Positions 1,357 through 40,939 of a stretch of DNA of 64,000 bases are shown in pieces; the first letter of the stretch is position 1, and each line of letters begins with the position of its first letter. The DNA comes from Tubulanus polymorphus (taxonomy: Eukaryota > Nemertea > Palaeonemertea > Tubulaniformes > Tubulanidae): positions 3,008,072-3,072,071 of the forward strand of contig NC_134034.1 of the NCBI RefSeq assembly GCF_964204645.1, written 5' to 3'. A model generated the notes under the pieces. It saw nothing but the letters and a program-made list of their open reading frames with translations. It had not been told where the DNA came from and searched no databases. Position numbers and translations under genes: made by a program.

Positions 1357-4146
1357 ATGAAATTCGTGTTCTGCTTTGTTTTATGCGTGGCGGCGCTGGC
1401 GGTCTCGGAAGCCTTTTCCTGCGACCCGTTGCTTGCTGAAGATGATTTTTGTCAATATGATTTTGGTAAGTTTACATGGTTAGAGTTCGAATGGTTCGGG
1501 TATTATGAATGATTCAATTAATATTTGGCCATTTTTTCAATTATTTGGAATACTAACAGAAGGGGGAAAATGGAGTGGGCGAACGAAGGGAAAATGAAGA
1601 ATTCTTTAAAAATTTTTCTATATAAATAAAAAAAGGTGTCTATGGTTTTAGGGTGAACGTATTTTTTCCGGGTCCGTTTATTTTGATATGTACATGGACC
1701 TTCATTTTCTCTATGTATTTCTTAGTAATGAGGACTTCGTGCCACCAGCTATCCCGCTAGATGGCGCGCGTAACTGTGCAACAACCCCGTCAAAATCTAG
1801 TTCATTTTCAATGACCTTTCATCTAGATTTTTAGCCTCCCTCGTCAGAAATTAGGTAAATCACTCATTTTGATAAACTCAGATGATCTTGAGGTTCATAT
1901 TTAAGGTGGTTTTTACCGATCACCATTATGGATAGACTTTAATCGAATATGAGAAGAGAAGAGTTGCTGTCTGGGTGCACACTAGCGAACCTGGTGAATC
2001 CTCGCTTGCCACAAGTGGAATCCTCGATTGCCACAGTCGAACGCAAAGTCCTCATTAGAACACATTTCATCTAGTTTTATCATCTATGTTCCAGTGATGA
2101 AGGCACTGGTAAAAGCTGTACGCGATGTGAACGGAATACACAGATACCAAGTGAAAATAAGAAAATACTTTAAACAAGTAGGTAACAAAACAAGAAAAAA
2201 GGCTTAACAGGAATTTACGCATTTCGTACGCACGAAAATCAGTTCTAGGTCCAGTATATATATATAATATATATATATATATATATATATATATATATAT
2301 ATATATATATATATATATATATATATATATATATATATATATATATATATATATATATATATATATATATATACGTGTAATATTATTTGTAGCCTACTAC
2401 GCAGATGAACACATTTGGCAAAAAAGACAAAATGCTGGATATCTATGCCTATAAAGATACCAGATATGGAGTTACCCTAACAGAAGGAGACGTATACGTA
2501 CTCGGTGGTAAGTACCGCTGAAGTAACCTATGACTTATCAGTAATCGAGAATCGGCACCACTACTGTGGCAAGCGGTATGAATTATTACTGGTGTCATTA
2601 CTATCATTCCACTATCGGGCGCACTTAGGTTATGTGATTTATTCTACGATTTAACTAATTATAGTTAGTCGTATATTCGCCAACTAGGTAAAACCGTATA
2701 CCGGTTAGTCGGAACTGAAGTCCGAAAATAGCTACAGTTCGAAACTATTGTTCCAAGATGGACGATTAGTGGTGCAATGCGTTAAACCGAAGCGCGTTAT
2801 TAGTCGTCGAACTGACAGTCGTCGAACGAAAACCGAAATATGGGGTATCCGATTCTTGGTATCCCATTGGGGTAGCCGCAAAACCAGCTATCCCACCAGA
2901 TGGCGGGACGAGCAGTAGGTCGTCCGTTGTCTGAACTCCCAACTTCTTTCAACTCTGAACTACTTTCGTAAATGATTGATTCGTTCAAGACAAAATTCAT
3001 TCCGTTTTAATTGAAATGTAGAAGAAATCGAACGTAGGCAAAAACCGTAAAGTTTCCCAAGTCTCTGTTTATAACGCATGCGCATTAGGAAGTGTTGGGG
3101 AAATCCTCTAAGTCCAGAAATTGGTCGCGTGCGCATGCGTCGCTACATGTGTATTTTTTCCTAAACTGGGTCATGTCAGAACTCTGAAACATAGAACTAT
3201 AACGGAATGAACCTGCGTGAACTTTTGCGCAGCGGGAAGGCGCAGTTTGTTTGGTCACTTAAGACTCTTCATGATCCTCTTAGAGGATCATTTGTATTTT
3301 TGGGAATGACAGGTGTTCAAGTGGTCTTGCCATAAGCTAAAAATCTAAGATATATATCGGTATATTATAAAGGATGAATGTATTTTTTTGCTACACATTC
3401 GGGATTCGAACCTAATAGCACTTAAAAGTAAATCCTGGGGCTATCAAAGTTCATTATTTCATATTCGGGATGCTATCACTTTTTTACTCGGCAAACAATA
3501 ACCCAGTGACACTTTAATCATCAAAGTTCATGTCGTAACGCTTGAAATACGATCAGTAATTTTCGGGTTTCGAATCTGATAGCGCCGCTTATAAGATGAA
3601 CAGCGTAAATAAGATCAATATTTTTACGGGATTCGAACCTAATGGAAACTACAGCGACTATTAGTCATTAAAGGTTACATGTAGCTCACATGTAGTGCCG
3701 CATGCGCAATGTGCCGCTTTCTCGACTAAGAGCAATTCCAGCACTGACTAATGTGCATACGTTAGGTAGAAACGGAGACTTGGGAAACTTTACGGTTTTT
3801 GCCGAACGTAGACGATCAGCTGTCTACTAGCGACACCTGGTGCATCCTCGCCTGCCATGCGTGGAATCCCCGAATGCCACAGTAGTACTCCCATTAAGCC
3901 GCGTGACTTACTATAATTACGATTACGAATTGGGTGTATGCCTATGCCATCTGGTGTGTGCTGTAGGTACCACATTAATTAGATGTTTCTTTAAAATAAC
4001 CGACGGATTTTCGTGATTTTATAGGGTCTTATGACGCAAAGAACAAAAGGGCAACCATAGGCTCGTGTCAATATGCAAAGAAATTCAACTCGATCGCAAA
4101 AACAGAAAAACGGAAAATGAGAAACATCAAATGCGGTCAAAACTAA
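1357..4146 (+). CDS. TIMP/netrin-like secreted protein, copy A
   Basis: The gene has four coding exons: 1357-1465, 2095-2177, 2405-2507 and 4025-4146. All have GT..AG borders, with intron phases 1, 0, 1, giving 138 residues. The signal peptide [19 protein letters not shown] is followed by a single netrin-like (N-TIMP) fold. SCDP and FCQYDF match the TIMP N-terminus, VMKALVKAV and [10 protein letters not shown] match the first strands, [21 protein letters not shown] matches the strand carrying TIMP Cys70, and IGSCQY and IKC match Cys99 and Cys124. Phe replaces Cys1 and Tyr replaces Cys70, so one of the three N-domain disulfides is gone while the other two pairs are kept. There is no TIMP C-terminal domain. 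In known TIMPs the Cys1 amino group chelates the protease zinc, so classical inhibition is unlikely. The family call rests on cysteine pattern and strand order; the precise function is unknown. Confidence 0.75.
1726..2057. mobile_element. ~330-bp MITE in TIMP-A intron 1
   Basis: The ends are inverted repeats, TAATGAGGACTT at 1726 and AAGTCCTCATTA ending at 2057. Copies lie at the same intron position in B (17078-17404) and C (39122-39449). A diverged copy in opposite orientation lies at about 26853-27198 in the single-copy region, so this is a dispersed element and not part of the gene. It has no coding capacity. Confidence 0.6.
2255..2372. repeat. (AT)n microsatellite next to exon 3 acceptor
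   Basis: This almost pure TA tract of about 118 bp ends about 30 bases before the exon 3 splice acceptor at 2403-2404 of TIMP-like gene A. The homologous tract is about 132 bp in copy B (17603-17734) and about 294 bp in copy C (39647-39940). Confidence 0.95.
3038..3802. mobile_element. 765-bp TIR transposon, non-autonomous
   Basis: Terminal inverted repeats of about 28 bp open with GCAAAAACCGTAAAGTTTCC and close with the inverse. They are flanked by a perfect 9-bp direct repeat CGAACGTAG (3029-3037 and 3803-3811). Copy C of the locus has the undisturbed single CGAACGTAG at 40592-40600, which proves insertion. A 9-bp target duplication with long TIRs is typical of Mutator-like elements. The interior has no transposase frame but has three spaced GGATTCGAACCT-like words (about 3408, 3567, 3630) resembling tRNA B boxes. 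Confidence 0.85.
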
Positions 4147-38752: not shown

Positions 38753-40939
38753 ATGAAATTCGTGTTCTGCTTTGTTTTATGCGTGGCGGCGCTGGCGGTC
38801 TCGGAAGCCTTTTCCTGCGACCCGTTGCTAGCTGAAGATGATTTTTGTCAATATGATTTTGGTAAGTTTACATGGTTAGAGTTCGAATGGTTCGGGTATT
38901 ATGAATGATTCAATTAATATTTGGCCATTTTTTCAATTATTTGGAATAATAACAGAAGGGGGAAAATGGAGTGGGCGAACGAAGGGAAAATGAACAATTC
39001 TTTAAAAATTTTTCTATATAAATGAAAAAAGGTGTCTATGGTTTTAGGGTGAACGTATTTTTTCCGGGTCCGTTTATTTTGATATGTACATGGACCTTCA
39101 TTTTCTCTATGTATTTCTTAGTAATGAGGACTTCGTGCCACCAGCTATCCCGCTAGATGGCGCGCGTAACTGTGCAACAACCCCGTCAAAATCTAGTTCA
39201 TTTTCAATGACCTTTCATCTAGATTTTTAGCCTCCCTCGTCAGAAATTAGGTAAATCACTCATTTTGATAAACTCAGATGATCTTGAGGTTCATATTTAA
39301 GGTGGTTTTTACTGATCACCATTATGGATAGACTTTAATCGAATATGAGAAGAGTTTTTTGTCTGGGTGCACACTAGCGAACCTGGTGAATCCTCGCTTG
39401 CCACAAGTGGAATCCTCGATTGCCACAGTCGAACGCAAAGTCCTCATTAGAACACATTTCATCTAGTTTTATCATCTATGTTCCAGTGATGAAGGCACTG
39501 GTAAAAGCTGTACACGATGTGAACGGAATACGCAGATACCAAGTGAAAATAAGAAAATACTTTAAACAAGTATGTAACAAAACAAGAAAAAAGGCTTAAC
39601 AGGAATTTACGCATTTCGTACGCACGAAAATCAGTTCTAGGTCCAGTATATATATATATATATATATATATATATATATATATATATATATATATATATA
39701 TATATATATATATATATATATATATATATATATATATATATATATATATATATATATATATATATATATATATATATATATATATATATATATATATATA
39801 TATATATATATATATATATATATATATATATATATATATATATATATATATATATATATATATATATATATATATATATATATATATATATATATATATA
39901 TATATATATATATATATATATATATATATATATATATATACGTGTAATATTATTTGTAGCCTACTACGCAGATGAACACATTTGGCAAAAAAGACAAAAT
40001 GCTGGATATCTATGCCTATAAAGATACCAGATATGCAGTTACCCTAACAGAAGGAGACGTATACGTACTCGGTGGTAAGTACCGCTGAAGTAACCTATGA
40101 CTTATCAGTAATCGAGAATCGGCACCACTAATCGGCGGTATGAATTATTACTGGTGTCATTACTATCATTCCACTATCGGGCGCACTTAGGTTATGTGAT
40201 TTATTCAACGATTTAACTAATTATAGTTAGTCGTATATTCGCCAACTAGGTAAAACCGTATACCGGTTAGTCGGAACTGAAGTCCGAAAATAGCTACAGT
40301 TCGAAACTATTGTTCCAAGATGGACGATTAGTGGTGCAATGCGTTAAACCGCAGCGCGTTATTAGTCGTCGAACTGACAGTCGTCGAACGAAAACCGAAG
40401 ATATGGGGTATCCGATTCTTGGTATCCCATTGGGGTAGCCGCAAAACCAGCTATCCCACCAGATGGCGGGACGAGCAGTAGGTCGTCCGTTGTCTGAACT
40501 CCCAACTACTTTCAACTCTGAACTACTTTCGTAAATGATTGATTCGTTCAAGACAAAATTCATTCCGTTTTAATTGAAATGTAGAAGAAATCGAACGTAG
40601 ACGATCAGCTGTCTACTAGCGACACCTGGTGCATCCTCGCCTGCCATGCGTGGAATCCCCGAATGCCACAGTGGTACTCCCATTAAGCCGCGTGACTTAC
40701 TATAATTACGATTACGAATTGGGTGTATGCTTATGCCATCTGGTGTGTGCTGTAGGTTAACAGCACATTAATTAGATGCTTCTTTAAAATAACCGACGGA
40801 TTTTCGTGATTTTATAGGGTCTTATGACGCAAAGAACAAAAGGGCTACCATAGGCTCGTGTCAATATGCAAAGAAATTCAACTCGATCGCAAAAACAGAA
40901 AAACGGAAAATGAGAAACATCAAATGCGGTCAAAACTAA
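38753..40939 (+). CDS. TIMP/netrin-like secreted protein, copy C
   Basis: Coding exons are 38753-38861, 39487-39569, 39972-40074 and 40818-40939, with phases 1, 0, 1, giving 138 residues. It differs from copies A and B by single residues (GIRRYQ for GIHRYQ). The cysteine set is as in A and B: Cys3, Cys13, Cys99 and Cys124 equivalents present, Cys1 and Cys70 replaced by Phe and Tyr. Intron 2 contains a TA tract of about 294 bp ending about 30 bases before the exon 3 acceptor. Intron 3 lacks the transposon seen in A and B. It lies between TIMP-D and FTCD and looks like the source copy of the recent duplications. Confidence 0.75.
39122..39449. mobile_element. TAATGAGGAC MITE, copy in TIMP-C intron 1
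   Basis: Same element and position as 1726-2057. Confidence 0.6.
39647..39940. repeat. (AT)n microsatellite, copy C (longest)
   Basis: About 294 bp of uninterrupted TA, ending about 30 bases before the exon 3 acceptor of TIMP-like gene C. Confidence 0.95.
40592..40600. other. Empty target site of the 765-bp transposon
   Basis: A single CGAACGTAG lies in the same surroundings where copies A and B carry the element between two CGAACGTAG repeats. Confidence 0.9.

Follow-up and report, generated by a model that had tools for sequence, protein, structure and literature searches.

The N-domain of tissue inhibitors of metalloproteinases (TIMPs) carries three disulfide bonds, 1-70, 3-99 and 13-124, and in human TIMP-1 breaking the 1-70 or the 3-99 bond is said to abolish inhibition. 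According to passages of PMC3679795, TIMPs hold a protease by residues 1 to 5 and a loop at residues 66 to 70 tied to them via the 1-70 bond; Cys1 binds the zinc through its amino and carbonyl groups, and residue 2 occupies the S1' pocket. Single-domain TIMPs, with the N-domain only, appear in part of PMC9409782 for nematodes and cnidarians. Here we describe a tandem cluster of TIMP-like genes that is likewise single-domain, in a 64,000-base stretch of the Tubulanus polymorphus genome (the window; bases 3008072-3072071 of contig C10 in the 267.8 Mb, 77-contig assembly used for genome searches). Genes A, B and C form one type (type A). Gene D forms the other together with D2, a further complete copy of D that lies immediately outside the window on its upstream side. 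As read from the gene models, each type is short of a single bonded pair of cysteines, not the same pair in the two, when set against an ordinary TIMP that the genome carries on contig C3.

Two-domain TIMPs, represented by human TIMP-2 and the C3 TIMP, align in their N-domain with the cluster proteins over most of the length. Their signal peptide is followed by C-x-C, as in D, and the first two introns of the C3 gene have the same phases as those of the cluster, within about one residue. The cluster differs from them in that no C-terminal domain was found, in having four rather than six N-domain cysteines, and in having two different sets of these.

Cysteine sets of the two gene types

Each of the four genes in the window has four coding exons (Table 1) and GT-AG introns in identical phases, and in all of them exons 1, 2 and 3 measure 109, 83 and 115 bases. 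D2 differs from D at two residues and has the same end. A probable 5' intron separates a non-coding first exon from the ATG exon; its donor end, GTAAGTGCT, is present at A (308), B (15661), C (37711) and D (31621), and its 3' end, the acceptor TTATTACCATTTCAG, is common to all four. Long (TA)n tracts of unequal lengths lie in intron 2 (A 2268-2373, B 17603-17734, C 39647-39940).

A, B, D and D2 score above the cut-offs of the Pfam profiles TIMP (PF00965; 36.3, 34.9, 40.0 and 41.0 bits, cut-off 23.1) and NTR (PF01759; 31.1, 31.9, 24.5 and 24.8 bits, cut-off 21.9); the scans covered these four proteins, and C stands one residue from B. Against solved structures, phmmer matched D to TIMP-2 (E 7.5e-4) and A weakly to the same protein (E 0.034), many Keap1 rows in A's listing having been set aside. 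The frames stop at the N-domain, and a tblastn search of the window with the C-domain exon of the C3 TIMP found no C-terminal domain (best E 0.66).

The signal peptide of each protein ends in SEA. Cleavage was read by the (-3,-1) rule rather than predicted by a program, and would fall before FSC in A, B and C and before CSC in D; on this reading the mature chains of D and D2 begin with Cys-X-Cys, and those of A, B and C do not. Mature cysteines stand at 1, 3, 70 and 98 in D and at 3, 13, 98 and 120 in A, B and C, and D2 equals D at these places, so that each protein has four of the six N-domain cysteines. An earlier note on this DNA had described D as starting CSCDP and keeping the equivalents of Cys70 and Cys99 without Cys13 or Cys124, and A, B and C as starting FSCDP and keeping those of Cys3, Cys13, Cys99 and Cys124; the spliced models agree with both descriptions. 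Alignment to a TIMP N-domain also bears the note out for D: HMMER places its Cys1, Cys3 and Cys70 on the TIMP-2 equivalents, with Ser at the place of Cys13. The Tyr that the note saw at the Cys70 place of A, B and C stands in part. No cysteine is there in either alignment, and HMMER puts the Tyr of A at that place; MAFFT opens a gap beside it, so that which residue takes the Cys70 place depends on a single gap.

The ordinary TIMP (contig C3:6865-10329, minus strand) scores 102.3 bits against Pfam TIMP and has an HPQ motif and a C-domain-like exon. Its assembled part carries mature cysteines 1, 3, 13, 72, 99, 123 and 127; the C-domain-like exon lies further on and is not joined to this part. 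As this gene keeps the full N-domain set, the losses in the cluster are derived and the full set is the older state. Measured against its cysteines 1, 3, 13, 72, 99 and 123, the proposal of one lost bonded pair per lineage, not the same in the two, is borne out by the aligned sequences, and no odd cysteine is left in either type. Two of six cysteines lost would be a bonded pair with a chance of 3/15 (0.2) per lineage and 0.04 in both, which, if losses are random, is suggestive and not overwhelming; selection against free thiols would produce such pairs with no functional change.

Two points qualify the earlier account. A, B and C are copies of one segment, duplicated with its surroundings, with only three residue differences among the proteins, so their losses are one event and not three. 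The loss in D had been described as a loss of two cysteines, which fits Cys13, substituted; Cys124, as the gene model reads, went with an early stop (34912-34914) that removes the end of the domain.

Genome protein searches, made exon by exon, gave 12 matches with D and 18 with A, all in the cluster. With the C3 TIMP as query, three exons on C3 were matched and, weakly, two other places (E 0.139 and 9.77), and a TIMP family search at E 0.001 found C3 only. The cluster and the C3 TIMP missed each other in these searches, and distant TIMPs were possibly missed as well. The next 10 kb upstream gave no match at E 0.05, and no relatives were found on viral contigs in a weak search whose two patterns were both taken from the signal peptide.

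Copying, divergence and the end of D

The genes follow one another as D2 - A - D exon 4 - B - D - C, and the main blocks of the window's self-comparison are 92 to 98.6% identical. We take the stretch that holds D and C as the original place, because its right end adjoins the apparent remainder of a formiminotransferase gene. A copy of it holding D2 and A runs from base 716 of an upstream segment (L014; C10:2999715) to base 11887 of the window, where it joins head to tail, at 11884-11887, a shorter copy that holds B. On this view the shorter copy is cut inside D intron 3, which accounts for the stray D exon. In intron 1, A and B are the closest pair (4/624 mismatches, against 7/625 and 8/624 to C). 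An FTCD_N frame lies in the copied part at 11360-11782 (the only copy scanned) and 48163-48585, and an FTCD_C match at 52718-53005 is weak (23.2 bits, below the cut-off of 24.5). A pair of minus-strand frames at 5341-5868 and 6222-6551, copied at 42030-42494 and 42844-43173, has a signal-like start and a repeated DNSAESV tail; frame 5341-5868, the sole one of the four that was scanned, gave no Pfam match over the cut-off.

D and D2 show no mismatch in exons 1-3 (0/307), as against 76/1695 in introns 1 and 2 (39/808 and 37/887). Judged from 400-base flanks, a mismatch-free exon has a probability of 0.19 for exon 1, 0.0019 for exon 2 and 0.27 for exon 3, with a product of about 1e-4. Between A and D, 119 ungapped codons give a nonsynonymous divergence (dN) of 0.41 and a synonymous divergence (dS) of 0.88 (z 2.6); leaving out codons 65-90, the shifted part of exon 3, gives 0.34 and 0.74 (z 2.1). 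Faster than neutral evolution of the mature part of D was considered and rejected, as dN is below dS. D and A are 80 to 86% identical in the 5' untranslated region, the 3' block described below and the end of intron 3, and 56 to 58% at the edges of intron 1. At 34700-35300, 14 of the 19 mismatches between D and D2 cluster at 34865-34991 (L014 6187-6317), possibly through gene conversion.

Mature D has 105 residues, 18 fewer than the 123 of A, and runs seven residues past Cys98 where A runs 25. The stray exon and D2 carry this early stop as well, which places its origin before the duplications and rules out a base error. A conserved block follows the stop (Table 1), and six copies of it were found in the genome, each just behind one TIMP unit (A, B, C, D, D2 and the stray exon). 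This pattern is consistent with exon 4 being followed by a 3' untranslated region that the units share; a transposon was rejected, since all six copies sit at TIMP units.

The signs that the lost C-terminus of D can still be read one frame over are divided, with mild support from TIMP-2 and Pfam and none from the C3 TIMP or from the bases. With the frame-shifted tail added, D scores 42.3 bits against Pfam TIMP instead of 39.7 (two scrambled tails gave 39.7 and 39.0). Its phmmer score against TIMP-2 becomes 27.4 bits instead of 22.9, in a search from which two designed repeat proteins that ranked above TIMP-2, each matched weakly in several copies, were set aside. In a local test the tail was equalled by 9/500 shuffled and 6/500 random open tails. 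Against the C3 TIMP the tail is at chance level (equalled by 378/1000 shuffles and 197/1000 random tails), and base-level alignment of the D tail to A is not significant (516/2000 shuffles); tails with simple repeats were excluded from the random sets. D2 has no cysteine at the place of the out-of-frame TGC codon of D. Table 1 also includes receptor-like frames elsewhere in the window.

Table 1. Positions, in window coordinates, of the TIMP-like genes, their parts and copies, and of neighbouring frames.
Feature	Position	Strand	Details
Gene A	1357..4146	+	Exons 1357-1465, 2095-2177, 2393-2507, 4025-4146; 142 residues; signal peptide, then FSCDP
Gene B	16709..19508	+	Exons 16709-16817, 17442-17524, 17754-17868, 19387-19508; R46H and G90A relative to A
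Gene C	38753..40939	+	Exons 38753-38861, 39487-39569, 39960-40074, 40818-40939; H52R relative to B
Gene D	31883..34914	+	Exons 31883-31991, 32815-32897, 33790-33904, 34847-34914; 124 residues; CSCDP start; early stop in last exon
Stray D exon 4	12483..12550	+	Between A and B; D stop present; nothing matching D exons 1-3 alongside
Probable intron of A	308..1328	+	Between non-coding first exon and ATG exon
Stretch with D and C	29505..48690	+	From self-comparison; taken as original place
In-window part of the D2/A copy	1..11887	+	Matches 37404-48690; holds A
Shorter copy	11884..20841	+	Matches 34249-42131; holds stray D exon and B
End of D frame	34903..34914	+	Gln-Val-Ser-stop; contains donor-like CAA/GTAAGT
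Out-of-frame TGC codon	34953..34955	+	65 bases past the Cys98 codon in D; in A, 66 bases separate the last two cysteine codons
Conserved 3' block	34973..35168	+	196 bases; starts about 59 bases past the D stop
Toll-like receptor open frame	21957..24254		LRR and TIR above cut-off
Partial LRR copy	25700..26017		Downstream of the Toll-like receptor frame; 80% identical over 375 bases
Receptor-like frame	28203..29255	-	7tm_1 28.6 bits, below cut-off of 30.5; passes two other seven-transmembrane models
Receptor-like frame	60083..61078	+	Passes rhodopsin-type 7tm_1 (49.3 bits, cut-off 30.5)

Functional readings and their rivals

The two types differ at the surface by which TIMPs hold proteases. Over 12 hand-anchored places of the contact loop, D agrees with the C3 TIMP at 6, A at 2 and B at 1, and with TIMP-2 at 6, 4 and 3, respectively. 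D keeps Cys1, Ser2, Cys3, Pro5 and Cys70; A and B keep Ser2, Cys3 and Pro5, and the type A loop is changed and one residue shorter. Calculated isoelectric points (pI) are 9.1 for D and about 9.5 for A, B and C, which makes glycan binding possible for both types alike.

On these features we lean towards D and D2 as minimal TIMPs that probably still inhibit, and towards A, B and C, without the anchor of the inhibitory warhead, as proteins that probably have another job. A six-cysteine TIMP N-domain would have given rise to a tandem cluster of single-domain secreted proteins of two types. D would fold with bonds 1-70 and 3-98, which would hold the N-terminal strand to the 66-70 loop, and would still present a zinc-binding N-terminus with Ser2, as a small metalloprotease inhibitor. 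Type A would keep the scaffold bonds 3-98 and 13-120 and begin with an unanchored Phe-Ser-Cys. Given that start and the changed, shorter loop, it is probably not a TIMP-like inhibitor, and its strong positive charge suggests that it may bind matrix glycans or another partner. A further step, which we regard as possible and rather doubtful, is that one TIMP N-domain was split after duplication into complementary two-disulfide proteins, with the warhead bond in D and D2 and the scaffold, with a different binding job, in A, B and C. In that case D and D2, at 105 residues and with the scaffold bond and the C-terminal stretch gone, would possibly be among the smallest natural TIMP inhibitors.

Several observations weigh against the preferred reading. 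Identity up to Cys99 hardly separates the types (to the C3 TIMP, A 23/89 and D 26/90; to TIMP-2, A 23/88 and D 23/89). D lacks the last 18 residues of A, and its folding may be harmed. In the comparison of D with D2, exon 2 alone is significant against its flanks, and exons 1 and 3 singly are not. Intron 3 has only 12/942 mismatches and the 318 bases upstream of D (31300-31617) have none; part of the match between D and D2 may therefore reflect local gene conversion, with a conserved promoter as another possible contributor. Coding divergence among A, B and C is no lower than that of their introns (between A and B, 4/429 against 11/2141), and the seven coding changes among A, B and C comprise three that alter an amino acid and four that are silent. 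Intron 3 figures for A-C and B-C (112 of about 730) were dropped, having been spoiled by a large gap. Three intact copies are the only sign of constraint seen on A, B and C.

Type A proteins could in principle still be metalloprotease inhibitors if Phe1 took the place of Cys1, its backbone amino and carbonyl groups binding the zinc with Ser2 in the S1' pocket. They retain Ser2, Cys3 and Pro5, and zinc is bound through exactly those groups of residue 1, as PMC3679795 has it in part; we nonetheless consider this unlikely, because the shorter loop matches known TIMPs at few places and the loss of the 1-70 bond leaves the N-terminus untethered from it. A reading of D and D2 as decaying genes, with truncation as the first step towards a pseudogene and no stable protein, seems less likely still. 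The C-terminal part of the domain is cut off, the stray exon proves that broken copies exist, and between D and D2, exon 4 together with the next 76 bases shows 13 mismatches over 144 aligned sites (3/68 in the exon, two of them residue-changing, and 10 beyond it), plus a 4-base gap. Against this stand the mismatch-free exons 1-3 beside introns that have diverged, and splice sites that are intact in both genes, with no further disabling change seen in either.

Cys124 would not be lost at all if D were spliced within exon 4 at CAA/GTAAGT, a near match to the donor consensus, to a further exon bearing a cysteine. D, D2 and the stray exon all preserve the donor-like sequence. A stretch at 35197 that would place a cysteine 23 residues past Cys98 reads open in D as well as in D2; it is one of 41 candidates listed before D2 was known, and the only one checked in D2. 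Its acceptor, however, would be AAG, the TIMP score barely moves (40.1 against 39.7 bits), its score against the C3 TIMP (20.9 bits) lies below the averages of shuffled and random tails (22.2 and 21.5), and it would leave an odd cysteine. Additionally, the 3' block shared with A begins so soon after the stop that exon 4 looks to be the last in both genes, and we give this splice form a small chance, below that of decay. Least probable is that the assembler placed alleles side by side, so that A, B and C, or D and D2, stand for a smaller number of genes. The identity of the main blocks overlaps allelic difference in some invertebrates, and the copies end abruptly, but two copies meet head to tail, the third lies apart behind unique sequence, and the whole cluster sits inside a 14.3 Mb contig.

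TIMP engineering and evolution hinge on which N-domain bond serves what. If D inhibits and A does not, as the preferred reading would have it, the bond needed for inhibition would be separable from the bond needed for fold stability. One genome here offers two natural proteins from one ancestor, each without a different bond, and an ordinary TIMP as control.

Comparison with known TIMP-like proteins

The hookworm proteins AceES-2 and Ad-TIMP-1 are, in passages of PMC3679795, relatives of the NTR fold with missing or rearranged disulfides, and in this they resemble the cluster; no inhibition by AceES-2 was seen in the assays cited there. Both differ in lacking Cys3 and a suitable residue 2, whereas the cluster keeps Cys3 and Ser2 in both types. 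In echinoderms, part of PMC8467561 describes the repeated origin, in duplicated TIMP genes, of TIMP-like proteins that lack N-terminal cysteines, a further likeness; the TIMPs of echinoderms, unlike those described here, carry 10 to 12 cysteines in all but a few cases. Tensilins have two residues between their first two cysteines in the same source, whereas D has one and A, B and C are without the first cysteine. That part of PMC8467561 describes no reciprocal pair of losses for echinoderm TIMP-likes or tensilins.

The 'Pseudo TIMPs' of bivalves, Owenia and others, in part of PMC10755359, are lineage-specific duplicated TIMP-like genes, as is the cluster; they are defined by failing the SMART NTR profile and not by cysteines, and the words cysteine, cys and disulfide are absent from the main text of that paper. 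Two paralogues that lost different bonded pairs were not found in the literature searched on TIMP cysteine loss, TIMP expansions, tensilin and cri-2. Earlier publications already cover TIMP-like proteins that lack the N-terminal cysteines, the single-domain form and tandem expansion, and the new part of the Tubulanus cluster is the reciprocal split of the cysteine pairs between its two types.

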